Assembly (NCBI RefSeq): GCF_004335015.1
Contig: NZ_RQRU01000002.1
Coordinates: 248,001 to 312,000 of the forward strand
Source: Psychrobacter pygoscelis
Lineage (GTDB): Bacteria; Pseudomonadota; Gammaproteobacteria; Pseudomonadales; Moraxellaceae
Length of the DNA stretch: 64,000 bases
Direction: 5' to 3'
This document shows positions 33,387 through 53,594 of the stretch, piece by piece; positions within the stretch are counted from its first letter, which is position 1; every line of letters starts with the position of its first letter. The translations under genes were made by a program, and so were the position numbers. The notes beneath the pieces are model-generated. The model was not told where the DNA came from and did not search any database. It worked only from the letters and a program-made list of their open reading frames with translations.

Positions 33387-34403
33387 ATGCAGACTATTGA
33401 AGACCTGGCTCAAGATGCCTGTAATTATTGGCCAACTGAATTAGTGAAAGAAGCCGCTGATAAAAGCACTTTGATTCCGCTTCTAGAAACTCAAGATACC
33501 TTTCTAAGTCTTTTAAAAGTTGCTGATGCCACTCCTTATGCATGGAAGGATATGCTTACTCAAACTAAGTCCTTATCGGCTAATGTTTTTTTGAAGCACC
33601 TAATGGTACTTACTGATCTAGGTGGTGAGCGTCTACAACGCTATGCTAAAGACTTTTCTCAGTTGTTCCCAAAAGGAGTATTAGAGTTTGTATATGATGA
33701 TACTAATCACATCTATGAGTTTAGCAAACCTAAAAAACGTATTTGGAATAATAAAAAGCTAAGAGTCGAAAAATCTTTATTACTAGAAGAGCGACAGATA
33801 TTTACTGATGACATGCTTGATGTTTGTATGTTATTAATTTGGGGCGCTAATACGACTAATCCTATATACCTACCAGATGAAATCTTAGAAAAAGCAATTA
33901 TTGGCAGTTTAATTGGTAATAGCGATAAGTTAGATAAATATGTCAAAGAGCGTTATTTATTTGTCAGTCGCCAAATTGGTGGTTCTACAGCTAACGATCT
34001 GGGTTATATTTGTGAAGCGTATATTAAGGACAAATTAGAGAATTTACTACCAGACCATTATAATCTTGCAGGACATACGTTAGAAAACGTCACTTTAAAT
34101 GATACCCAACTTACTAAATTTGATTTAGTTGTTTTAAATTCTATAACAAACCGCTCTATAGGCATAGAAATCAGTTTCCAAGTTACTACTAACTCTGTTA
34201 TTGAGAGAAAGGCACAGAATGCTAATAACAGACAACAACTTGCCCATCAGAATGGTCATAAAGTTGGCTATATTATCGATGGTTCGGGTAACTTTCAGAG
34301 AAAAAGTGCTATTCAAAACATACTGAACTATAGTGATTGCACTGTTAATTTTTCTGAGAATGGTTTGTTAAAAATGGCTAATTATATAAAAGATAATGTT
34401 TAA
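33387..34403 (+). CDS. Type II restriction endonuclease (predicted)
   Basis: A 338-residue protein predicted to be the nuclease partner of the cytosine methyltransferase whose ATG overlaps its stop by one base (TAATG). A PD-(D/E)XK-like core is visible near the C-terminus: FDLVVLNS (Asp246), then IGIEISFQVTTN (Glu261 and Gln265), followed by a basic helix VIERKAQNANNRQQL and a strand VGYIIDGSGNF. The N-terminal 200 residues are helical and unassigned. The recognition sequence cannot be read. Base composition is clearly more AT-rich than neighbouring ligA, consistent with horizontal gain. Confidence 0.75.
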   Translation: MQTIEDLAQDACNYWPTELVKEAADKSTLIPLLETQDTFLSLLKVADATPYAWKDMLTQTKSLSANVFLKHLMVLTDLGGERLQRYAKDFSQLFPKGVLEFVYDDTNHIYEFSKPKKRIWNNKKLRVEKSLLLEERQIFTDDMLDVCMLLIWGANTTNPIYLPDEILEKAIIGSLIGNSDKLDKYVKERYLFVSRQIGGSTANDLGYICEAYIKDKLENLLPDHYNLAGHTLENVTLNDTQLTKFDLVVLNSITNRSIGIEISFQVTTNSVIERKAQNANNRQQLAHQNGHKVGYIIDGSGNFQRKSAIQNILNYSDCTVNFSENGLLKMANYIKDNV

Positions 34404-35668
34404 TGATAAGATTTATAGATTTATTTGCTGGAACAGGTGGTATCAGACTTGGCTTTGAACAAGCCCTAAATGAGCTAGGTATAAAGTCAAAATGTATTCT
34501 GAGCGCAGAAATAGATAAAGAAGCATGTAAAACTTATGAGGCAAATTTTGGTGAAAACGCCTACTGTGATATTACACAACTGTCTGAGGTAGAAGACTTT
34601 GATGTTCTTCTTGCAGGATTTCCTTGTCAGGCCTTTTCTTCTGCAGGAAAAAGATTAGGGTTTGAAGATACAAGAGGTACTTTATTCTTCGATGTAGCTC
34701 GTTTAATCAAAAGTAAACAGCCATCACTATGTATTCTCGAGAATGTACGAGGTTTAGTAGGTCACAATAGAGGAAGAACTTTTGAGACTATTAAAAATGT
34801 CTTAAGCGATTTAGGCTATAAGTTTGAGTATAGATTACTAAACTCTAGTAACTATGGGTTAGCTCAAAATCGTGTACGTATTTACATAGTAGCAGTCAAA
34901 GACTTTTCTCCAATACTTACATTAGCTAATGATGTTGGTGCTGTAGACTCTCATGCTTTTAAAAATAACTTGATGAATGGTAATTTATTTCATGAACATC
35001 AATCAGTATTAGTTAAAGATATTCTAGAAAACAATCCGAATGCTAAATATGACTGCTCTGAAGAATTTACTAAGAAGTTAACTAAGGTATTAGAAGGCGA
35101 TCTAAATAAGCTACATGGTATACGCCTTATCGATAGTCGAGGTGGCAACTCCATTCATTCGTGGGATTTAGGTCTGCGCGGTGAATGCTCAGTGCATGAA
35201 ATAGAATTTATGGATTTGCTAATCGCTAATCGTCGAAAAAAAATTTTTGGTACGCACCAAGATGGTAAAGCCCTTAGTAAAAAACAAATAGAAACTTTTT
35301 ATCCTTATGATGATATTGACTCAATTATTAGTTCTCTATTGCAAAAACGCTATATTAAGGAAGCGAATGGGCTATATAATCTGGTTGCAGGTAATATGTC
35401 ATTTGAAGTTTTCAAATTTCTTGACCCTGATAGTATCTCCATCACATTAACGGCCTCTGATTCTAATCGGTTAGGTGTATACCATAATGGGCGTGTGCGG
35501 CGTCTTACACCTAGAGAATGTGCAAGATTACAAGGCTTTCCTGACTCTTATGTCTTACACCCTAAGGATACCTGTGCTTATAAACAATTCGGTAATGCAG
35601 TAAGCGTTCCTGTAATCAAAGCACTTGTTAAAGATGTTATGATTCATAACCCTAACCTTTTTAAATAA
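34403..35668 (+). CDS. DNA (cytosine-5-)-methyltransferase
   Basis: Modification enzyme of the type II system. The m5C motifs occur in order: FIDLFAGTGGIRLGFE (I), AGFPCQAFSSAGKR (IV, catalytic Cys75), ENVRGLV (VI), QNRVRIYIVA (VIII), RRLTPRECARLQGFP (IX) and QFGNAVSVPV (X). Between VIII and IX is a target-recognition region of about 190 residues, including IHSWDLGLRGECS and a helical segment LLIANRRKKIFG. That determines the sequence methylated, which I cannot deduce. At 421 residues it has normal length. The last codons overlap a 10-bp inverted repeat (35652-35682) without a T-run. Confidence 0.95.
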   Translation: MIRFIDLFAGTGGIRLGFEQALNELGIKSKCILSAEIDKEACKTYEANFGENAYCDITQLSEVEDFDVLLAGFPCQAFSSAGKRLGFEDTRGTLFFDVARLIKSKQPSLCILENVRGLVGHNRGRTFETIKNVLSDLGYKFEYRLLNSSNYGLAQNRVRIYIVAVKDFSPILTLANDVGAVDSHAFKNNLMNGNLFHEHQSVLVKDILENNPNAKYDCSEEFTKKLTKVLEGDLNKLHGIRLIDSRGGNSIHSWDLGLRGECSVHEIEFMDLLIANRRKKIFGTHQDGKALSKKQIETFYPYDDIDSIISSLLQKRYIKEANGLYNLVAGNMSFEVFKFLDPDSISITLTASDSNRLGVYHNGRVRRLTPRECARLQGFPDSYVLHPKDTCAYKQFGNAVSVPVIKALVKDVMIHNPNLFK

Positions 35669-35727: not shown

Positions 35728-37857
<2,130 letters not shown>

Positions 37858-38580: not shown

Positions 38581-38588
38581 CCCCACCT

Positions 38589-38630
38589 CGCCATGATGGG
38601 CAGATACAAGTGGATTGCGGCATCGCTAGC
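38589..38630 (+). repeat. REP-like element, single copy
   Basis: The first 22 bases (from CGCCATGATGGGC) are identical to 43111-43132 and the remaining 20 are similar with substitutions. It is therefore a second copy of half of the inverted-repeat element near zipA. It lies just past the possible gene relic. Confidence 0.65.
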
Positions 38631-39162: not shown

Positions 39163-42100
39163 ATGAACCACGTATATCGTATTATTTGGAACCGCACTTT
39201 AGGCATGTGGCAATGTGTGGCTGAGACCGCAAAATCCATGGGCAAACGCTCACATTCTAAAACCCAATCCTCATCCAGTCAGCGAAGCTTGGCACTCAAG
39301 CCTTTAACGCTGGCGCTACTGGCTATTTCTGCGCCTGCAATAGCGGATGTTACCTATGATGATGGGAAAACAACGTCTCTACCAAGTGATGTCGGTGTAG
39401 ATCAGACATTGACAGTGACCAATGGTTCTACTGTTACCGCTACCAATGTCGGTATTGGTAACCAAGGTACAGGTGCGCTAATTATTAATGACAATAGCCA
39501 CTTTGATGCTAGCGAATCTATTGGTGTGGCCCTGCAAAAAGGCAGTAATGGTAGTATAAAAGCTAGCGGTGCAGGCACAACTATCAGTGCTAAGAATGTG
39601 AATGTGGGTGAAATTGGCACTGGAGATTTTCACGCTGAAAAAGGAGCAAAAACTTCAGTTTCAGATTCGCTAGCTATAGCACTTATAGAAGGTAGTACGG
39701 GTACTTTAACTTTGACTGATGACAATACCTCTCTAAGCGCTAAATTACTGGGCGTGGGTAATAGAGGTTCAGCGACATTAACAGTAGAAAAAGGCGCAGA
39801 CGTTCAAGTTGCAACTGATACTATCGTAGGCCACAGAAACGTTAGTAATGGTAATGCGACTATAACGGGCCAAGGAACTACCTTAAATTCTGGAAACGTA
39901 CTGATAGGTAATCAAGGCCAAGGGAACTTAACTGTAAAGGATGGGGCAAGCTTTAAAGCAAAAACTGACTTTGTCGTTGGTGTCGCTAATGGCTCTAATG
40001 GTACAGCCACTATCTCTGGAGAAAAATCTACAGGTAGTGCAGAGCGAGTTTTGATAGGTAATGACGGTAAAGGGCGGCTTAAGATTGACAAAGGAGCCAA
40101 AGTTACTGCTAATGGCGTGGCAAGTATTGGAACAAAAAGCACTGCAGATGGTGAGATACAACTGACCGATGCGGGCTCTCAATTATCAGCAGTTGAGTTG
40201 TATGTTGGTGATGAAGGAGCTGGAGCGTTAAAGGTTCAATCGGGCAGCCAAGTCACTATCGATAACTTAACTATAGTTAGCCGAGAATTGTCTGGTAAAG
40301 GTCAAATCGATATTACCGGTAAAGGCAGTAAGTTTAAAGGAGATAATCTTGTTGTTGGTCATAAGGGTGAAGGTGTCTTCAATATCACTAAGGGCGGTAA
40401 CGCTGAATTCAGCACTTTTGCACGTATTGGCCAAGCTAACTTCATAAAAAATAATAGTACTATCAATGTAACAGATGCAGGTTCTAATCTGACTGCTGAC
40501 GAGATTCAAGTTGGCTTTGAGGGTATCGGTAAGCTAAATATTAATAATGGCGCCTCTGCAGAAGCAAATAAAACATTGCTCGGACTAAAGCGCTTTGGCG
40601 CAGGTGTCATCAACGTAACGGGATCAGACTCTAAGCTAACTACCAACCAATTGGCTATAGGTAGCCAAGCTAGTGGCGGTGTGGTGGTCGATGATAAAGG
40701 CTATGTTAAAGTGAAAGATTTGGCCGTTATTGGTGATAACTCATTTGCCTCCGGTACTCTGACTGTGGATAACAACAGTGTATTCGAGTCACCTAAAGTT
40801 ATCGTCGGCAACAATGGTAACGGCAACATTAACTTAAACAACAAGGGTACTCTACTTACCCAATCACTGACTGCGCCAAATACCACAGGCGCAAAGGTGA
40901 ACTTTGACGGTGGCATACTGCGCTTATCCGGCAATCAAGATGCTCTATTCGATGGCTTTTTGTTTGGAACTCGGGGTGACGTCAACATCAAAGCTGGTGG
41001 CGCCACCATTGATACTCAAAGTTATGACGCGGGTATTGCTACTGCTAAGCTGAGTGGCGAAGGTCAATTGACCAAGCTTGGCAGCGGTACACTCAGTATG
41101 AAAACCGCCAGTAAAGATTGGCAAGGCGGTACCAATATTCAAAAGGGTATCTTAAAGCTCGATGGCGACTACACCATGACCGAAGGTGAGAAGCTGACCA
41201 TCGGTGTGGACAATATGAGCGACTACGGCAAGCTGCAAGTGAGTGGTCAGGCAAAATTAACTCAAGGTGAGCTGTTCGTTGACGCTGCCGATGCACAAAA
41301 CTTGGTGGAAGATGGGGTGTTGGCCGATGTGGTCAGTGCGAATAAGCGTGAAGGCGAGTTTAAAAAGGTCTCTGATAATAGTCGCTACTTTAATCTTGAG
41401 GCGGACTATACAAAAGCTAACGCCGTTGACTTAAAATTAGTGTCTGCTACCAAGCCTGAAACCAAGCCTGAAACCAAGCCTGAAACCAAGCCTGAAACCA
41501 AGCCTGAAACCAAGCCTGAAACCAAGCCTGAGACCAAGCCTGAGACAATCAGTCAAGACGTTATCGCTCAGAACAACTATGCTGCCCGCGATGTCGCACG
41601 AGTGCTAGACAAGGCTATTCAAACGGATACCGATGGCGAATTAGCAAAGTCATTTGTCGGTATAAAAACAACTGAGCAAGGTGCCAACGCTGCGAGTGAG
41701 ACACTACCATTATTCACAGGAATGGTCTCGCGCCTACTGCTCGATGACTCAAGACACCTCACTGATACAGTGGCGCAGCGTAGTATCGATCGTAGCATCC
41801 GTCCTGAAGGCAATGTCTGGGGCAAAATCACGGGTCATAGTGGTCAGCAAGACCCTAATGGTAGCTTGCCAGGTTATCAAAACGATGACTTAAGTGTCGT
41901 TGTAGGTGCTGATACTATGTTAGATAGTAACTGGCGTCTTGGCGCGGCTGTCGCTTATAACCAGAGCGATGCTGACACGGATGGTCACTTAATCAATCAC
42001 GAGATGACTGCCGATACTTGGCGCGTCTTAGGCTATGGTGACTATCAGGCCGGTAATACTATCGTTGACTTCCAAGCAGGTGGTGGTAACAGCCGTATTA

Positions 42101-42630
42101 AAGGTGAGCGTCACATTGGCTTTGCCAACCGTATTGCCTACTCTGACTATGATGCGACCATACTTCAAGCTGGTGTGGGAGTCAGTCAGCGCATTGGTCA
42201 AGAAGACCGCTACATTGCACCATTTGTTCGAGCTGATTTTGCACAGATAGATAATGAAGGCTATCAAGAGACTAAAGCTGGTGCCTTGAATCTAAATGTC
42301 GATGACAGCAAGCAAAAGTCATTAATCTGGCGCGCCGGTATCACTGGTAAGCAAGCAGTCTCCGAGCGCTTGAGCCTCTCTGGCGTTGCGGCTGTCGGTA
42401 TTGACAATGGTGATCGTAAAGCGACCACTACCGCGAGCTTCGCTGGTATGCCAAACGAGAAATTTGTCACGCAAAGCTTAGAGACAGGTCACACTCTAGC
42501 CAACCTTGGCCTGGGCGTCAGCTATAAAGTCACGCCAAATAGCGACATCTCAGCCAACGTGTCAGCAGACTGGCGTGAAGATGGCTATGAAGATCAAGCG
42601 GTCTCTTTAGTGTGGCAGTCGAAATTCTAA
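39163..42630 (+). CDS. Type Va autotransporter adhesin with extended signal peptide
   Basis: A 1155-residue classical autotransporter. The N-terminus (MNHVYRIIWNRTLGMWQCVAE) is an extended signal peptide region. A basic Ser-rich stretch and a hydrophobic core ending AISAPAIA follow. Residues ~55-700 are a Gly/Thr/Asn-rich beta-helix passenger built from roughly 45-50-residue degenerate repeats of the form VGxxGxGxLxVxxGA...SxGxxxITG. A proline-rich linker has eight tandem TKPE units (residues ~763-794). The last ~270 residues form the beta-barrel, starting near NVWGKITGHSGQQ and ending VSLVWQSKF with the expected terminal Phe. AGGA precedes the ATG and a terminator follows. Likely role: surface adhesion or autoaggregation. 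Confidence 0.93.
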   Translation: MNHVYRIIWNRTLGMWQCVAETAKSMGKRSHSKTQSSSSQRSLALKPLTLALLAISAPAIADVTYDDGKTTSLPSDVGVDQTLTVTNGSTVTATNVGIGNQGTGALIINDNSHFDASESIGVALQKGSNGSIKASGAGTTISAKNVNVGEIGTGDFHAEKGAKTSVSDSLAIALIEGSTGTLTLTDDNTSLSAKLLGVGNRGSATLTVEKGADVQVATDTIVGHRNVSNGNATITGQGTTLNSGNVLIGNQGQGNLTVKDGASFKAKTDFVVGVANGSNGTATISGEKSTGSAERVLIGNDGKGRLKIDKGAKVTANGVASIGTKSTADGEIQLTDAGSQLSAVELYVGDEGAGALKVQSGSQVTIDNLTIVSRELSGKGQIDITGKGSKFKGDNLVVGHKGEGVFNITKGGNAEFSTFARIGQANFIKNNSTINVTDAGSNLTADEIQVGFEGIGKLNINNGASAEANKTLLGLKRFGAGVINVTGSDSKLTTNQLAIGSQASGGVVVDDKGYVKVKDLAVIGDNSFASGTLTVDNNSVFESPKVIVGNNGNGNINLNNKGTLLTQSLTAPNTTGAKVNFDGGILRLSGNQDALFDGFLFGTRGDVNIKAGGATIDTQSYDAGIATAKLSGEGQLTKLGSGTLSMKTASKDWQGGTNIQKGILKLDGDYTMTEGEKLTIGVDNMSDYGKLQVSGQAKLTQGELFVDAADAQNLVEDGVLADVVSANKREGEFKKVSDNSRYFNLEADYTKANAVDLKLVSATKPETKPETKPETKPETKPETKPETKPETKPETISQDVIAQNNYAARDVARVLDKAIQTDTDGELAKSFVGIKTTEQGANAASETLPLFTGMVSRLLLDDSRHLTDTVAQRSIDRSIRPEGNVWGKITGHSGQQDPNGSLPGYQNDDLSVVVGADTMLDSNWRLGAAVAYNQSDADTDGHLINHEMTADTWRVLGYGDYQAGNTIVDFQAGGGNSRIKGERHIGFANRIAYSDYDATILQAGVGVSQRIGQEDRYIAPFVRADFAQIDNEGYQETKAGALNLNVDDSKQKSLIWRAGITGKQAVSERLSLSGVAAVGIDNGDRKATTTASFAGMPNEKFVTQSLETGHTLANLGLGVSYKVTPNSDISANVSADWREDGYEDQAVSLVWQSKF
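41449..41544 (+). repeat. 12-bp tandem repeat encoding (TKPE)8
   Basis: Eight direct copies of ACCAAGCCTGAA, the last two with a terminal G (GAG codon). The unit is a multiple of three, so copy changes lengthen or shorten the linker between passenger and barrel without breaking the frame. Confidence 0.95.
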
Positions 42631-42728: not shown

Positions 42729-42860
42729 TGGGCAAATGCAGCAAATAATTATGTTTTGACCCTAAAAGACAGAACACAACACTGCTAACGAATCGCAGAA
42801 TTTCTCTTGCGAACTTAATATCTTATCTAAGTGCAACAAAGGTTATTATAGTGGCTACAA

Positions 42861-43153
42861 GATGCGGTTTAGCCCCTGAGAGCCGTTTAAAAATTGCACT
42901 GCAATTTTAGGCTCGCAAGGGAAATCCTTTAAATAGGATTTCCGTAAAGGCTAATACCATCACCGATTGAAATAACTACTAGTGAAGTTGCCTTGCGATG
43001 CGGTTTAGCCCCGATAGGAGCGGTATCCTGCCTATCAGGGCGGGGTTCGGTGACTGGCTGGGCGGCGGTCTCTCGGTAGAAGGAACGTCGGGCAGACTTA
43101 GTCACCGCCCCGCCATGATGGGCAGATACAAGCGGATAGCGGGATTGGCTACC
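42861..43153. repeat. REP-like composite element with nested hairpins
   Basis: A 16-base direct repeat GATGCGGTTTAGCCCC occurs at 42861-42876 and 42997-43012. Between the copies lie two perfect hairpins (42890-42898/42900-42908 nested in GAGCC/GGCTC; and 42920-42927/42936-42943). The right half is an imperfect palindrome: 43039-43045 pairs with 43108-43114 and 43049-43055 with 43100-43106. Outer arms share GTATC, TGCC and ATCA blocks in inverted order. The right arm recurs at 38589-38630. Confidence 0.75.
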
Positions 43154-43212
43154 AAGGGCACTGTATATCGAGTTGTGGGTTGGGGTGAGCTAGAGAATGG
43201 TTAGCCATAAAA

Positions 43213-43242
43213 AAGGGCCAATAGTCACTACTATTGGCCCTT
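43213..43242 (-). terminator. Terminator of zipA
   Basis: Perfect 12-bp arms AAGGGCCAATAG (43213-43224) and its complement (43231-43242) with a six-base loop. A/T runs on both sides suit bidirectional use. It lies 23 bases beyond the zipA stop. Confidence 0.85.
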
Positions 43243-43265
43243 ATTAGTCATTTGTCGCGCATGAG

Positions 43266-44300
43266 TTAATGAGACGCTAGGCGGTAGTCTTGAACTTCAG
43301 TACGTAGTTGAGCTTTACGGTCGCTGGTCAGCTGGTCATTGTTTTCATCTAAAATAACAGCGTCAAGCTCACGTGCCATAAGACCGGCGATACTCATCAT
43401 GCTATCAAAACCTTGTAGCGCTTTGGGGTGCGGCAAGGACAAGAACATGACCAGACCGCTATAGGCCGTCTGCGGCATCGTGTTAAGATCAAAAGGGGCG
43501 ATGCCATCATCAGTAATGCCCATCATACTAAACCAGAGAATGCCCGTACCGTCTTTGTTCTCGTAGCGGTGAAACATGTTCATAGCGCCGTATTTAAGAC
43601 CGAACTTGTCGACGAGGCCCAATAACTCTTCACCGCGAATAATAGCTAAGGGCTGGTCGGCGTAGTGCCGGGGCATGATGGTGATGTTAACGTTATCAGA
43701 GGCATTGTTCAGCGGACTATTTTGATCTTGGTCAGCAGCGGCCAAAAGATGCTGATCGAGTACAGGGCTATTGTCCGTGAAGGTCGGCTCTTCGGCAGTA
43801 TCAATGACGGGCATAAGGTTGTCAGTCGCTGAGACCAAGGTGGAGAATGCGTCGTGCTCGCTTGGCTCATGACCATTAAGCTCAGTAGCAATTTGCTTAA
43901 ACTCCTCATCGTCGGCTTGATGCTGACGGGCCTGCCACTCGCTATACTCCGGATCATCAGTAGGCGCTTCTTCATGACGGCGAAACGCACTTTGAGAGTG
44001 CTGACTTTGATCGGGCGCAAATGTCTGGGAGCTATCGTCTGTCTCGTCTTCGATCACCGCTGATAAGTGTGTGCGGCTCGGGGCAATCGTCGTCTCGCCA
44101 GCGACGGTGTCATCAAAGTCTGGCTTATCGATAAGATTGCGTTCATGACGGGGGATAATAGGAATACCGTTTTTGTCAAATTCGACGTCACCCGCTACCT
44201 CATCATGATTACGGCGCTTGAGGCTGCGGATGACCATAAATAACCCTGCTAAAATAATCAGTGCAGCAATGACAATCAAAATAAACTGAATCGTGGTCAT
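43266..44300 (-). CDS. zipA: Cell division protein ZipA
   Basis: Inner-membrane anchor that tethers FtsZ filaments at the division site. The start at 44300 (MTTIQFILIVIAALIILAGL) directly gives the N-terminal transmembrane helix; an in-frame TTG at 44330 is less likely. A basic cluster (RSLKRRNHDE) and an acidic Asp/Glu/Ser/Gln-rich disordered linker (residues ~40-190) follow. The C-terminal ZipA_C domain includes LGLVDKFGLKYGAMNMFHRYE, quoted in part, with GTGILWFSMMG and TAYSGLVMFLSLPHP. Together with smc upstream it matches the conserved smc-zipA-ligA order. Confidence 0.92.
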   Translation of the reverse strand: MTTIQFILIVIAALIILAGLFMVIRSLKRRNHDEVAGDVEFDKNGIPIIPRHERNLIDKPDFDDTVAGETTIAPSRTHLSAVIEDETDDSSQTFAPDQSQHSQSAFRRHEEAPTDDPEYSEWQARQHQADDEEFKQIATELNGHEPSEHDAFSTLVSATDNLMPVIDTAEEPTFTDNSPVLDQHLLAAADQDQNSPLNNASDNVNITIMPRHYADQPLAIIRGEELLGLVDKFGLKYGAMNMFHRYENKDGTGILWFSMMGITDDGIAPFDLNTMPQTAYSGLVMFLSLPHPKALQGFDSMMSIAGLMARELDAVILDENNDQLTSDRKAQLRTEVQDYRLASH

Positions 44301-44675
44301 GGTGTCGTTACATCCTAGCGCCTGTGGCAATATGCTACCAAATCTATAGGATATCTACTCTTGGCTCTGAGCACTGATATGACAAGGTAGTGCGGGTTAT
44401 GAGCTGTCAAGATAGATGATACGCTATAGATGGTATAAGATTAAAAAATAAAAGTCATATAAATGGCAATAGTCTACCATGACTGACAGATGTCGTCACC
44501 ACAGCGCGCAAAAATGTTAGATAAGATTGGCAATACAAGTGCTAGCAGGTAATAGCATGGCCGTAACCCTCGATAGTCGCGCTATAAAGAAAGGGTTAAA
44601 GCGGCTATTGGTTGGACGCTGTACCGCTATAGGATAACCGTCAATCCGCCCTTGTAGCCGCAGTAAAGAACCTTA
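44301..44675. other. Intergenic region smc to zipA
   Basis: A 375-base gap between two minus-strand genes. A possible zipA promoter lies at 44440-44469; nothing else stands out. Confidence 0.45.
44440..44469 (-). promoter_or_regulatory. Possible zipA promoter
   Basis: On the minus strand TTGCCA (44464-44469) and TTTAAT (44440-44445) are spaced by 18 bases in an AT-rich context about 140 bases before the zipA ATG. Confidence 0.35.
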
Positions 44676-48549: not shown

Positions 48550-50052
48550 TCAATTTAGCTCATAACCCAAATCTTCTAATACACTATATATTTCAGTTCT
48601 CAAATGATTTCTTAAATCACTATCCCCATTAAACATAAATCTTAAGTCGTTACCATAGTCTGACTTAATAGCCTCCTCTTTCTTTTCTTGATTCTCTAAC
48701 AAAATACATCGTTTATCTCGTCCTTTTGCGTAGCCATATTCATACAAAACATTGGCATTATTATTGGTTATATCAGCAATGAAAATCTGGCAATTATCAA
48801 TTTTTTTGAATATATCGACAATAATATTATGGGCTGGGGAATGGTTCGCCATAATAGAATAGTTCGATAAATTGATATGTGGGTTTTCCTTTCGTATTTT
48901 CTGAACGACTGTAATCAATGCCTCATTATAGTCTGTAACTTTAGCTTCACTATAATAAGGCATTGCCATAAATATTTTGACTTCATTATCATGTAAACCA
49001 TTATAAATCTTAACTAGCTCCTTAGGGCTTTCTAACGCTACCTTACACATGTGATTATTAACCAACCATTTAATAAAGCATTTAGCAGGCTGACTATTTA
49101 AAGTATTACTACGTTCAGGATGATTTTTAAACTCACGGTAAGTGTAATAAAATATAGCTATAAAAATGGTTTTGTCATTATTAAGACTTGGACTTTCACC
49201 ATACAACTGATTAACTAAAGAAATACTTTTATTAAATATCGATACATCCTCTAAGTCGTTTTCTATTATACCTTCTTCATGGAAGAATTTAATAATGTCT
49301 ACTAGGATACTTCTTGCCTTTTGTTCAAACACCAGCTTGATATCTTGCAAATGATCAAAGCCTAAATCACTATGAATCTTTCGAGTTAATACATACTCCC
49401 AGCCCATATCAATTTTTAGATCGCCATCATCATAACCTGATGCTTCAAATATTCCCTTTAATGTTTCCTCAGAAGTTAATGCCAAGCCTTTAGAGTTGAT
49501 ATTGTGAAAGATAACGCTTTGCTGAACTTGACCAATATCATAGCCGCCCGAACTAAATAAAATGATGCAAAAAGGACACATTTTATTAAGCTGTGACTGA
49601 TCCAACCCATCAACTGCTTGCAGTCGATGATTACCATCTACTCGGGTAAAAGGCTTCTCTTCTAGAGCATAATCTGTATCTAACCTTAGAGCGACATTTC
49701 TTACTATTTTTGGGTTATCAGAACTTTGATCCACAAGTTTGGATTGATTAGCAGTGAGCTCAATAGGTGATCCTTTCGTATCATCTTTTATCAGTATATC
49801 TTTAGAATTAGGATTGCTTGAAAAATTAGTGGCATGGTCATCTATATCTATTGCCATGATAATTTCACTAAAAAATACATTTTTACCTCTCTCATAGAAG
49901 TCAGCAATCTCCTGTTTATGTTCAGAGTTAATCTCTCTTTGAAAGCTTACATCTGTTCGAGATATTTTTGCCAGATCACCTAGCGTAGCGTAGCCCCTAA
50001 TACATGGATAATTGCCTAATACATTCTCTAGTAGTCCTCTTAAAACTATCAT
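48550..50052 (-). CDS. DGQHR-domain / nucleoside-deoxyribosyltransferase(TIR)-like fusion protein
   Basis: A 500-residue two-part protein, third gene of a coupled operon; its ATG follows the specificity-subunit stop by one base. The N-terminal part (to about 240) resembles DGQHR/DndB or ParB-like proteins: ISRTDVSFQREI, FTRVDGNHRLQAV with the DGNHR core at 139-143, and FHNINSKGLALT. The C-terminal part (357-500) has VKIFMAMPYYSEAKVTDYNEA and IFIADITNNNANVLYEYGYAKG with Glu438, and ends YSVLEDLGYELN. The AD[IL]TxxNxNVxYExGYA pattern is known from deoxyribosyltransferase/TIR-like effector domains that act on nucleotides or NAD. A role as defence effector or regulator linked to the methylation genes is inference; the catalytic activity is not proven by motif. 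Confidence 0.65.
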   Translation of the reverse strand: MIVLRGLLENVLGNYPCIRGYATLGDLAKISRTDVSFQREINSEHKQEIADFYERGKNVFFSEIIMAIDIDDHATNFSSNPNSKDILIKDDTKGSPIELTANQSKLVDQSSDNPKIVRNVALRLDTDYALEEKPFTRVDGNHRLQAVDGLDQSQLNKMCPFCIILFSSGGYDIGQVQQSVIFHNINSKGLALTSEETLKGIFEASGYDDGDLKIDMGWEYVLTRKIHSDLGFDHLQDIKLVFEQKARSILVDIIKFFHEEGIIENDLEDVSIFNKSISLVNQLYGESPSLNNDKTIFIAIFYYTYREFKNHPERSNTLNSQPAKCFIKWLVNNHMCKVALESPKELVKIYNGLHDNEVKIFMAMPYYSEAKVTDYNEALITVVQKIRKENPHINLSNYSIMANHSPAHNIIVDIFKKIDNCQIFIADITNNNANVLYEYGYAKGRDKRCILLENQEKKEEAIKSDYGNDLRFMFNGDSDLRNHLRTEIYSVLEDLGYELN

Positions 50053-50053
50053 T

Positions 50054-51424
50054 TTATTCTATATTCCCTAATATCAAGTCTTCTATCCGTTGTTGAGCCG
50101 TTTTTAATATTTCGTCCGCTTGTTGCTGCAACTGCGCGGCGGTTGTTCTAATTTGGTCAATATGTTGAACAACTTCTTGTTGTTTATTTATAGGTGGATG
50201 GGGTATCAATATTTTTTTTAAATCTCTAATATATACATGAGGTTGACCCGCACCTTTCTGTAATCTGTAAATTTCAGCTTGTTTGAAACTTAAAATTTCA
50301 TATACAAACCTAGCTAGGTATATATCCTTATCTTGTACTGTTAGAACGATACAGTCCGAAGCAAATATTGGATAATCATGATATCGAACATATCCTGAGT
50401 AAGCACCACTTGCACTAATGGTAATAGTCTCGTCTGTAAAGTTGTAGGTATTATGACTATAAGGGCTAGTCTTTCCTCCTGCTACGACTGGGTAATCTCC
50501 TTTTACTACCCTAGAGGAACTAATACTTGTTCCTTTGCTAAAGTTTACTGCTTTATCTAATGGAGCATTGCTGAATTTTTTCCCTTCTGCCTGATATTGT
50601 CTATTAAAAAATATAGATGGGTCGTAATTATCACTTAATTGACTCGCTTGAATAGTAAATATTCGACTAGATAAACTGTTATCTATTTCGGGAAGCGTAA
50701 TTCCCAGCTCTGTTAGTAGGTAGTCGTTGATACTGGCTAATAATCGACTGGCTTCTATCTTCTTTTCTTTATATATACTTACGCAATGCTTATTTTCTTC
50801 TATAATTTTCCTTTGAATCTCGACTGGTGGAACTACGAACGGAATCAATGATAACTGCTGATAGTTAATATTCTTTTGGGCTGCTTGAGGGGCTAAGCTT
50901 TCTATATATTCTCTAACCAAAGATAGATAAATTTCGACATACTTTAAAAGCAACTTATCATCTTTAGGTTTTATAGCAATTAAGCTATCTGGAAAGCACG
51001 CTGGATAATCTAGGATAGCTGTATACCCAATATTAGCAGCAATGGTAAACACAACTACTTGTTCATTAAACAATCGGCTAGTCTTTAGTCCTTTTTCATT
51101 TAGAGTCTGACTAAATTCAATTTTGCTTTTGTTCAAATGAGCTTTAACAACATCTCCAGTCTGAATAAATGGATAAACACCGTCATAAAACTTTGGGTCG
51201 TTACGAGGTCGATGTCCAAACCTCCCTCGCTGCATATCCAGTACGTTACTTATTTTTTCAACAGGATAAACCGTATTTTTTACTATTTCTAACTTATTTT
51301 TTGCAAAATAATATTGAGGATCTATCCTTCCTTCAATCTCACTTAAATTGACCAAGAATACTTTATCAGGGTGCACATTGTCCGAAATCTGAAATGACGT
51401 ATGATTTAGGCTGGTGCTACTCAT
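50054..51424 (-). CDS. hsdS: Type I-like DNA specificity subunit (HsdS/BcgIB-like)
   Basis: The 456-residue protein has two target-recognition domains and two conserved helical spacers. TRD1 covers about residues 20-190 and ends PFVVPPVEIQRKIIEENKH. TRD2 covers about residues 260-410 and ends KILIPHPPINKQQEVVQHID; a C-terminal coiled coil (RTTAAQLQQQADEIL) follows. This arrangement recognises a bipartite DNA target, which I cannot deduce. The first eight bases overlap the end of the upstream nuclease-methyltransferase gene (ATGAGTAG), so translation is coupled. Two-domain S subunits pair with type I or BcgI-type enzymes. Confidence 0.88.
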   Translation of the reverse strand: MSSTSLNHTSFQISDNVHPDKVFLVNLSEIEGRIDPQYYFAKNKLEIVKNTVYPVEKISNVLDMQRGRFGHRPRNDPKFYDGVYPFIQTGDVVKAHLNKSKIEFSQTLNEKGLKTSRLFNEQVVVFTIAANIGYTAILDYPACFPDSLIAIKPKDDKLLLKYVEIYLSLVREYIESLAPQAAQKNINYQQLSLIPFVVPPVEIQRKIIEENKHCVSIYKEKKIEASRLLASINDYLLTELGITLPEIDNSLSSRIFTIQASQLSDNYDPSIFFNRQYQAEGKKFSNAPLDKAVNFSKGTSISSSRVVKGDYPVVAGGKTSPYSHNTYNFTDETITISASGAYSGYVRYHDYPIFASDCIVLTVQDKDIYLARFVYEILSFKQAEIYRLQKGAGQPHVYIRDLKKILIPHPPINKQQEVVQHIDQIRTTAAQLQQQADEILKTAQQRIEDLILGNIE

Positions 51425-53594
51425 AAGTCTCCCCCTCTACTACGTCGCTAATAAACCTTTTTAGCTCGGCAGTTATCATATCCAGCTCATTAACAGCCGT
51501 GGGCTTGCCTGTTGCGTCATAGCCGATATCTTCAGCTATCGCCATAAATATAGGATAGTCTGGCAGGCTAGACTGTTTACGCTCTAAGTAGAGATCTTCC
51601 ATATCTTGCTTTAGTTGCTTAATCTGCTCGGTATACTCAGCTGTTTTTTCGGTCTTCCAAGCTTTATACTGTGCCGTCTTTTTGAACGTTTTTAACTCGC
51701 CATCATAGTTAATATCAGGATTATTTAAAGCGTCTTTTTTGACTTTTTCAATAGTATTAATCTGCTTTTTATAATCTTGCTCTTGCATTAGCGAGCTTTG
51801 CAAAGCTAGCTTTTGCTCTTGTAATTTATCGGAATAGCTTTGGGGATATTTGCGTAAGAACAATACGCTACTTTTGACCCCAGCGCCTGTTGCCGCAAAT
51901 GCTGTCTGCGGTAAGCTCACCACCGCCACGATACGATACCACTCCTCTATCTGATCACGGACATACTGTAGTGAGCTATTGGTAAGCACGCCATCGGGTA
52001 GGACGATAGCTAGATAGCCCATGGGAGCTAAAAACTGGTAGCACTGCTCGATAAACAACACTTCGGTGCTTTGTGTACCTCGATCTTTGACTCCACTATT
52101 TTTTAGATCCAGCCATGACGTATCTCGTTGACCGAAGTTATAAGTCTCTAAGTAAGCTTTTTCAGTTTGTTTGACACTACTGCCAAACGGCGGATTGGTT
52201 AAGATAAAACTGAAGTGGTTGTACTTGAAATCGTTGTTACCTGATAATGACTGTAAGGCTTTATCATTTAGCAAGCCATCTGCGGTGATAACATTGGTAT
52301 GACCATCGTCATGAATAATCATATTCATTTTCGCAGCGCGGCTGATCTGCTCGTTAATCTCAATACCGAACAAGCGCTTTTCAGCGAAATCGTGCCAGTA
52401 TTGCCAGTGCTCCTTGCTATCTGGCTCATAAAACTCATTGGCTTGACGACGTATCTTTTCTAACGCATGCAGCAAGAACCCCCCACTACCGCATGACGTA
52501 TCTAATACATAATCGTCTTGCTTAATGGGTAACACATCGGCGATGAACTGAACGATAGGTCTTGGGGTAAAGTATTGACCGAAATTACCTCGGAAGAACG
52601 ATCCCATAAAGGTCTCAAATGCGCGGCCTTTACTATCTAGATCGGTCTCACTTAAATTAATATCTTGCAAGTATTCTACAATAGTACGAACTCGGCTTGG
52701 GCTTAGGCGGATATCATCCTTAAAAACCTCTGGATCTTTTTTTCTGCCTTCCTCATAAAGTGCTGTTACCCTCTCGTATAGGGCGTTATTGGTTTTTTGT
52801 ATAGCATCCTTCTGTCTTTCTTCCTTTGTCTTGCCAGTGCCTTGCTCAGTAATCACCTGAAAATCATAAGGCACGCCTGCTTTTCGCGGTTTTCTTTCAT
52901 CCCAAATCTTACAAAATATGAGTTTGTCTAGCTCATCAAATGCCTCTGATGGGTTTAATTGACCACCAGCCCAAAGTGCATTATGCGCTTGTTTAAAGCG
53001 GTGAGTCAGCTCAGATTCTATAACGACAGACAGATCAAAAAAGTGTTGATCCTGATGGGATTGATTGTACCTCTCAGCGTATTTTACAAACTTATAAGGC
53101 GCCACTTCTTTGATGCCATAAGCTGGAATATCTGGACTTTCTTCTCTGGTTTGCTGGCTTTTATCAACCTTTAAGAAGATATTCTTGATCTTAGAGGTCA
53201 CCCAAATCCATTTGGTATTATTAGGCAATGAATATGCATAGGAATAAGCTTGCTCGACAGCTTGCTTAAACTCAGCTTCTGATACTTCTTGTTTTTTGCA
53301 CTCTACTAAGATGTGTGGCTGTAGACAGGCAGCATCATTATAAACAACGATGTCTGCTTCACGCTGACTTGATCCCATCGTAACAGGCACAAAGCATTTG
53401 ATACGTTCCTTGGGATAGCCATACTTAATAACTAACTGACAGAATATTTCGGCTTGAACCCGCTCCTCTGGATTAAGGTAAGAGCGACTTTTAGTGTAGC
53501 CAAAGTAAGTGATGCGGTTATCTTCATCATTTAATTCAATAATACCTTGACGCAAGCCCTGTTGAAAATAATTGTCTACGGTTTCTTCTGACAT
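51417..53594 (-). CDS. Nuclease-N6-adenine methyltransferase fusion (BcgI-A/HsdM-like)
   Basis: A 725-residue fusion. Residues ~40-145 form an HSDR_N-type PD-(D/E)XK nuclease: READIVVYN (Asp81) and ILVECKKQ (Glu98, Lys100). From ~205 an HsdM-type region follows: GQYFTPRPIV (339-348), SAM motif I DTSCGSGGFLL (365-375) and the catalytic motif IV NPPF (467-470), with an N-terminal helical bundle before it. A coiled C-terminal region (residues ~600-680) follows. No DEAD-box translocase is present in this protein or nearby. So cleavage and adenine methylation appear combined in one chain that uses the following S subunit, as known for type IIB BcgI. AAGG precedes the ATG. Confidence 0.85.
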   Translation of the reverse strand: MSEETVDNYFQQGLRQGIIELNDEDNRITYFGYTKSRSYLNPEERVQAEIFCQLVIKYGYPKERIKCFVPVTMGSSQREADIVVYNDAACLQPHILVECKKQEVSEAEFKQAVEQAYSYAYSLPNNTKWIWVTSKIKNIFLKVDKSQQTREESPDIPAYGIKEVAPYKFVKYAERYNQSHQDQHFFDLSVVIESELTHRFKQAHNALWAGGQLNPSEAFDELDKLIFCKIWDERKPRKAGVPYDFQVITEQGTGKTKEERQKDAIQKTNNALYERVTALYEEGRKKDPEVFKDDIRLSPSRVRTIVEYLQDINLSETDLDSKGRAFETFMGSFFRGNFGQYFTPRPIVQFIADVLPIKQDDYVLDTSCGSGGFLLHALEKIRRQANEFYEPDSKEHWQYWHDFAEKRLFGIEINEQISRAAKMNMIIHDDGHTNVITADGLLNDKALQSLSGNNDFKYNHFSFILTNPPFGSSVKQTEKAYLETYNFGQRDTSWLDLKNSGVKDRGTQSTEVLFIEQCYQFLAPMGYLAIVLPDGVLTNSSLQYVRDQIEEWYRIVAVVSLPQTAFAATGAGVKSSVLFLRKYPQSYSDKLQEQKLALQSSLMQEQDYKKQINTIEKVKKDALNNPDINYDGELKTFKKTAQYKAWKTEKTAEYTEQIKQLKQDMEDLYLERKQSSLPDYPIFMAIAEDIGYDATGKPTAVNELDMITAELKRFISDVVEGETYE

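Follow-up and report, generated by a model that had tools for sequence, protein, structure and literature searches.

What is the strongly structured stretch that occupies positions 42861-43153 of the window, by which we mean the whole 64,000 nucleotides of Psychrobacter pygoscelis DNA that were analysed (within contig G000:C22 of a 3.41 Mb genome, G000, hereafter the host genome)? A reading made from the sequence alone had called it a composite REP-like element. We found that these 293 bases are indeed a composite, but of two side-by-side elements from two dispersed repeat families instead of one, and the REP-like part of that description was not supported as far as we tested it. The right-hand element is a long hairpin, which we call the rod, with a leader ahead of it, and the left-hand one is called type 2. 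The features concerned are as follows.

43006-43151, + strand: rod element, a hairpin of the Flavo-1 class, 146 nt, TAGCC...GGCTA (RF01705 42.5 bits; R1 145.9 bits; covariation)
43006-43031, + strand: conserved 5' base of the rod, TAGCCCCGATAGGAGCGGTATCCTGC (invariant columns of the alignment of host-genome copies; common to Flavobacterium)
43124-43151, + strand: conserved 3' base of the rod, AGATACAAGCGGATAGCGGGATTGGCTA (invariant alignment columns; 27-base IUPAC pattern)
43040-43113, + strand: apical domain of the rod, about 74 nt, modular, of several types (limits approximate)
42975-43005, + strand: type A leader ahead of the rod, ending in GATGCGGTT (limits approximate)
42861-42876, + strand: left copy of the 16-base repeat GATGCGGTTTAGCCCC (end of a rod-type leader plus TAGCCCC)
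42997-43012, + strand: right copy of the same repeat (leader end plus TAGCCCC of the intact rod)
42877-42946, no strand assigned: type-2 element, TGAG...hairpin...GCAAG...hairpin (blastn pieces and folds; limits by eye from several sites)
38583-38623, + strand: 3' end of a broken rod copy (88% over 41 nt)
39163-42630, + strand: autotransporter gene, with the broken rod on one side and the intact rod on the other; 5' neighbour of the window rod
35728-37809 and 43266-44330: ligA-like and zipA-like genes, outside the rod-flanked interval (by eye)

The 16-base direct repeat had been noticed in the sequence-only reading and was found at both positions, even if a repeat search at default settings left it unlisted. 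It arises because the type-2 element abuts a rod-like 5' edge, and we read its left copy as the edge of a rod that was lost or interrupted. An arrangement like that of the left copy was also seen at L036 and L004, and at L096 a rod is split by type 2, between AGCTAATCCC and TTTCGCTACTATC. The hairpins and the large palindrome of the earlier description correspond to a pair of hairpins on the left and, on the right, to a single long rod, for which a covariance-model match spans 43004-43153. Strong structure on either strand was borne out as well: the DNA fold of 42855-43160 reached -69.8 kcal/mol (z -7.2, with 0 of 100 shuffles as low), and the RNA-fold z-scores were -5.3 (+ strand) and -4.9 (- strand) for the rod and -4.8 and -4.6 for the two strands of the left part. 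The stretch contains no credible gene, as had been claimed: of the frames of at least 60 aa, a single one overlaps it (68 aa, 42998-43204). A terminator had been placed on its right side, where a terminator-like inverted repeat is found at 43210-43245.

The sequence reported to recur near 38589 is the broken rod end of the list above, which was unmatched by our covariance model R1 at E 0.1. The end of the autotransporter gene that lies between the two rods (L001:2-1141) is part of alignment A4, one member of which has a Pfam Autotransporter beta-domain, and this gene is a possible candidate for exchangeable cargo. Two groups of genes that look by eye like restriction-modification systems lie on either side of the ligA-zipA-smc region, at 33387-35668, with a cytosine-methylase-like gene at 34403-35668, and at 48550-53594, where the group has three genes.

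That the stretch belongs to an amplified, dispersed and non-coding family was confirmed. A blastn search with the whole rod returned 31 pieces in the host genome, and R1, which was built from 18 rods that all come from the host genome, returned 33 matches there. Since match counts can include the same rod on the other strand, we counted distinct places instead, which gave at least 26 distinct copies in the host genome (24 distinct places among the matches listed, plus L015 and L121, which were found otherwise) and at least 28 distinct places for the 38 R1 matches of G072. The sequence proposed as a probe in the sequence-only reading, CGCCATGATGGGC, is a poor one for this family because it lies within a variable part of the stem, the conserved parts being both ends of the rod. 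Within the genus, R1 matched 75 of 80 genomes, the host included, with lengths of 145-152 nt among the matches listed, and the number of copies per congener ranges from none (5 of the 80) through one (many genomes) to dozens (a few). In the class, only 1 of 369 genomes was matched, the host itself, with the low sensitivity of a search that scored 8 candidates per genome. Three Flavobacterium genomes gave 62, 73 and 65 R1 matches, mostly of about 80 nt among the matches listed; of 296 genomes from the phylum to which Flavobacterium belongs, 40 matched at E 1e-5 (36 over the cut-off), against 0 of 14 control genomes. No blastn match to one rod was found in plasmids and phages, and no exact match to one 27-base rod pattern in viral contigs.

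The matches in Flavobacterium bring in a known family. A scan with Rfam assigned the window rod to RF01705 (Flavo-1), with 42.5 bits over 43003-43150 against a cut-off of 42, the tip being treated as a 74-nt insertion. Over the host genome the same model listed 8 places at 17.6-29.4 bits, all below the cut-off and without the window copy; at this loose limit it also matched 5 of 14 control genomes, and its cut-off was passed by none of seven further Psychrobacter loci. Since the window score barely exceeds the cut-off and other copies fall below it, the kinship rests on the reverse test, in which R1 matched the Flavobacterium loci L034, L037 and L038 with 75-78 bits (E 4e-21 to 4e-20), places that score 70-71 bits as Rfam Flavo-1. 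R1 aligned both of its ends to these three copies of about 80 nt, in which the conserved base with its TAGCCCCGAT.G.AGCGG / AGATA..AGCGRA.AGCGGGA loops is present and the apical domain is absent. In addition, a 27-base IUPAC pattern of the rod 3' end occurred in only five stretches among about 85,000 species, three from Flavobacterium and two from Psychrobacter (L035 and L036), in a collection that may omit records close to the host genome. We take this comparison of models to show that the rod is homologous to Flavo-1.

The two are alike in their ends, internal loops, rod shape and many copies per genome, and they differ in that Psychrobacter rods are longer by an apical domain of about 74 nt and occur outside Bacteroidetes. 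Six Flavobacterium copies that we fetched are also long (145-165 nt), with a tip of different wording from that of Psychrobacter rods. In the accessible part of the describing study, the authors' table lists Flavo-1 under Bacteroidetes (PMC2864571), so that a gammaproteobacterial host lies outside the range described. In F. psychrophilum, the accessible part of PMC9723704 places Flavo-1 matches sense or antisense to transcribed regions, with many outside any, and PMC9029176, as far as its accessible text goes, merely lists the family. The Psychrobacter rod is thus a real extension of Flavo-1, to a new phylum, to a longer modular form and with evidence of spread, of a sort that we did not meet in the literature searched for Flavo-1.

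Is it the folded form of the rod that is kept? Among the 18 host-genome rods, 31 of 45 pairs showed double changes. Among 105 distinct rods, this rose to 36 of 45, 92.9% of cells paired (70.3% when shuffled and 28-41% when slid) and covariation was 0.596 (0.181 when shuffled and 0.04-0.10 when slid), showing that the pairs of the rod covary. Across 40 pairs, G-U cells outnumbered A-C cells by 150 to 34, and a wider scan of 60 paired-looking column pairs gave 480 against 355, an excess that may be inflated since alignment and structure were both fitted to the + strand; these counts support, with caveats, the TAGCC...GGCTA strand as the one that would fold. At a fixed site, beside purL in six species, 13 pairs vary, of which 7 are broken in some species, 5 changed on one side and 1 compensatory. 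Split by tip, 6 pairs vary in type one (4 broken, 2 one-sided) and 3 in type two (1 broken, 2 one-sided). In four dispersed rods of G072, 8 pairs vary (5 broken, 1 one-sided, 2 compensatory). The numbers are small, and we read them as pairing that would be selected during spread and would drift after arrival. At one rod of the host genome (L010, C32:130159-130306) the tip appears by eye to be inverted between the stem arms while the base is unchanged, and R1 scores both strands there.

Comparisons between copies of a same genome then bear on how the family multiplies. In G031, the match between loci L150 and L152 coincides exactly with the 150-nt span of the model, at 96%, with nothing else alike in the 3-kb loci, and L152 and L154 match over 174 nt, corresponding to the rod plus 24 nt of leader, with rods 97% alike, against a background of 48-52% for random flanks. 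In G072, the rods of L131 and L132 are identical, within a common stretch of 257 nt at 89% that has more repeats around. Since rods 96-97% alike occupy otherwise unrelated places of one genome, these comparisons show that the family is dispersed and spreads inside one genome. For a MITE one would expect terminal inverted repeats, a target-site duplication and a parent transposon. The ends of the rod pair with each other (TAGCC/GGCTA). No parent transposon was found, no target-site duplication was seen by eye in five inverted rod pairs, and no clean empty site was demonstrated, the rod-free ech and metH sites differing in too much else.

Where these copies stand relative to genes was examined for 103 rods (106 rods from 100 loci, from which we removed L015, the reverse-strand match of L010, and L167, a duplicate of the L058 place; L160-L162, L169 and L174-L177 are among those not included). 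By eye, leader-like sequence lies upstream of many of them. The stop codon of the 3'-side gene faces the rod in 77 of 100 rods, at a median of about 100 bp, compared with 52 of 97 for the 5'-side gene (Fisher p 0.0006, orthologous sites being counted more than once). No constant distance between rod and terminator was found, a terminator being present in 28 of the 77 converging cases, at 8-135 nt. Recurrent sites include purL, where motif searches placed a rod within about 105 bp of the stop codon in 6 of 30 loci viewed and R1 added a seventh (G085), and metH, with a rod by motif within 60 bp in 6 of 30 loci; by eye, the metH rods stand where other species have a terminator-like hairpin.

At three loci, purL, ech and an RHS array of the host genome, the genes on the 5' side of the rod are exchanged. 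The cargo at purL is Lamassu LmuA/LmuB, a NACHT gene, an HD-CE protein or a gene of 131 aa, and the cargo between the ech stop codon and the rod is two diverged Tmn-like genes or a pair of AAA-plus-McrC genes, with a rod 97-99% identical in three species; in the RHS array, near-identical rods follow different genes (by eye). Comparisons of L008 with L018/L027, of L051 with L052 and of L061 with L063 indicated that leader and cargo switch at |TAGCC or a few bases from it, with a near-identical rod and the same right flank retained. A different pattern was found at purL between L048 and L061, from two species, which have in common the cargo, the leader (72 of 72 nt) and the right flank (95% over 3.1 kb) and whose rods are 82% alike with different tips, the tip having been exchanged as a block. 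At ech in G009 (L053), it is the right flank that changes, at the end of the rod. Because some breaks lie within the rod or past its end, homologous recombination via its conserved ends is favoured for these exchanges. Cargo is flanked by two inverted rods in L081 and L084, and a type IIG system lies between two inverted rods beside metH.

The exchange loci were picked by hand. An impression gained from them, that defence genes are enriched at rods, failed in a random sample of 30 of 79 loci (89 minus 10 same-site loci): PADLOC models at E 1e-10 matched three of the thirty 5' neighbours, as a cyclase, LmuB and type IIG, and also three of the thirty 3' neighbours, each time through the mad2 model, and with such equal counts a general link to defence is not supported. 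For the whole set, with 89 neighbours on each side and at E 1e-5, 135 PADLOC families were matched on the 5' side and 63 on the 3' side, families not being equal to members. We also considered that the copies at C22:192-203k might form a cassette array and rejected it, as the array consists by eye of RHS tips duplicated with their following genes and rod; the array is in L068 (G000:C22:186001-206000), with a near-identical rod after three of the following genes. Some other sites are worth recording. In L078, a rod separates Cas3 from Cas1 in a type I-F CRISPR locus, with another near the other end, beside purF (by eye). In G036, G017, G052, G040 and G044, part of the purL 3' end is present a second time, about 1-6 kb away from the complete gene, which is what islands carrying their own gene end would leave.

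Considering all of this, the rod is probably a non-autonomous structured mobile element, homologous to Flavo-1, whose identity would be its folded strand. It consists of 146 nt with invariant internal loops at the base and a modular tip. A putative trans-acting enzyme would recognise the folded base, as RNA or as single-stranded DNA, and would copy the rod, mostly to spots just past the 3' ends of genes, where the copies would then stay put and slowly lose their pairing. Type 2 would be a second mobile palindrome that landed within a rod edge or next to one, so that the 16-base repeat now lies on either side of it. Because about 27 nearly constant bases are common at each end, rods would also give recombination a portable anchor, across which the cargo beside some rods (Lamassu, McrBC, Tmn-like and restriction genes) and the rod tips would be exchanged as a secondary effect. 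Such cargo resembles the minimal mobile elements of Neisseria, in which cargo between conserved genes is swapped without mobility genes of its own, with the difference that some Psychrobacter sites have a structured repeat at one of the edges.

A rather unlikely alternative, which nevertheless accounts for part of the data, is that every rod functions where it stands as a structured RNA, acting in 3'-end processing, termination or antisense control of the neighbouring gene, and that the rod was multiplied by duplication. The strong covariation (0.596 against 0.181), the asymmetry between G-U and A-C cells, the 3'-side stop codons that face the rod and the metH rods that by eye stand at the place of a terminator-like hairpin of other species all agree with it, as does the finding that the gene neighbours of Flavobacterium copies recur between two or three species (kdsA, purB, asnS and prfA, by eye), which could also be explained by a function in cis. 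It fits poorly, however, with a copy number of 0 to dozens in one genus, with rods that are almost identical in unrelated positions of one genome and with pairs that are poorly kept at a fixed site, and in F. psychrophilum the accessible part of PMC9723704 gives Flavo-1 no clear link to transcripts.

Alternatively, rods may be recombination sites at which a putative dedicated recombinase joins cargo and leader at the TAGCC edge. The attC sites of integrons are long imperfect hairpins with a conserved base and a variable tip, a description that the rod shares, and at some sites the rod edges exchangeable cargo; by eye, no match to the attC core consensus was seen in the rod. The switches near |TAGCC with the same right flank at the RHS array, ech and purL, the identified cargo (Lamassu LmuA/LmuB, Tmn-like, McrBC, type IIG, NACHT and HD-CE) and the cargo between two inverted rods in L081 and L084 would suit such sites. 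We still hold this for improbable, given the L048/L061 break inside the rod, as homologous recombination would give, the differing right flank of L053 from the end of the rod on and the equal PADLOC counts on both sides of random loci. Hardly more probable is the wider proposition that Flavo-1 as a whole is a cross-phylum structured mobile DNA and not an RNA gene, attC-like without an integron, with a putative trans-acting enzyme that would read the folded strand, spread the element and join defence and other cargo at the |TAGCC edge.

The least probable of the explanations, in our estimate very improbable, is that a RAYT transposase moves the rod as a REP/REPIN, as proposed initially, or as an element of the IS200/IS605 type. 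The rod is a long, gene-free hairpin in many copies, and, like REP/REPIN elements, it is a dispersed palindrome beyond gene ends; Y1 transposases are 2 of its 89 5' neighbours. It differs from them by its 146 nt, its invariant internal loops and its sequence, and no link to RAYT was found. PF01797 matched 14 of 28 chosen genomes, and the seven loci examined that we take to be RAYT-like, from their score and for some from a sequence signature, have their own flanking palindromes, unlike the rod (by eye). R1 found no rod within about 1.5 kb of 13 RAYT-like and 17 other Y1-transposase loci; of the 32 loci searched in this way, only L059 and L170 held a rod, both having been selected for rods. Moreover, the rod-rich genomes G011 and G070 have no PF01797 match, those of rod-rich G072 are taken as IS200-like only, and G035 has low-scoring RAYT-like matches and no rod. 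Paired inverted copies, which had been anticipated for a REPIN, do exist in the form of five inverted rod pairs about 160-860 bp apart, but their unit is a rod of 146 nt and not a short palindrome. REP-like palindromes of several kinds do flank RAYT-like genes of the genus, as seen by eye at L240, L248, L236 and L239.

If the rod is the mobile element that we consider probable, then a sequence catalogued as a small RNA, until now a Bacteroidetes candidate, looks like a mobile element that crosses phyla, and the question would shift from what a Flavo-1 RNA regulates to what moves Flavo-1. With few to many rods per species, Psychrobacter is a genus in which such movement can be tested.

The type-2 element was found as 20 blastn pieces in the host genome, several of them in tandem, and had no Rfam match at E 1. 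In the window, it may either have entered an older rod that is now lost or have brought a copy of the edge with it. We considered tandem strings of leader and type 2 as a regular feature of rods and rejected this, since TTTAGCCC or CGCTAGCCC occurs within 700 nt upstream in only 5 of 103 rods (one of them without type 2), compared with 2 downstream. L004 and L012, at the two ends of contig G000:C22, show near-identical leader/type-2/leader/type-2 strings before different rods, and such a string probably broke the assembly there. By eye, type-2 copies lie beside tRNA genes (L352, L348), inside CRISPR arrays (L355, L356) and next to a terminator-like hairpin (L359); together with the rod, these sites give the impression of an element that favours structured targets.
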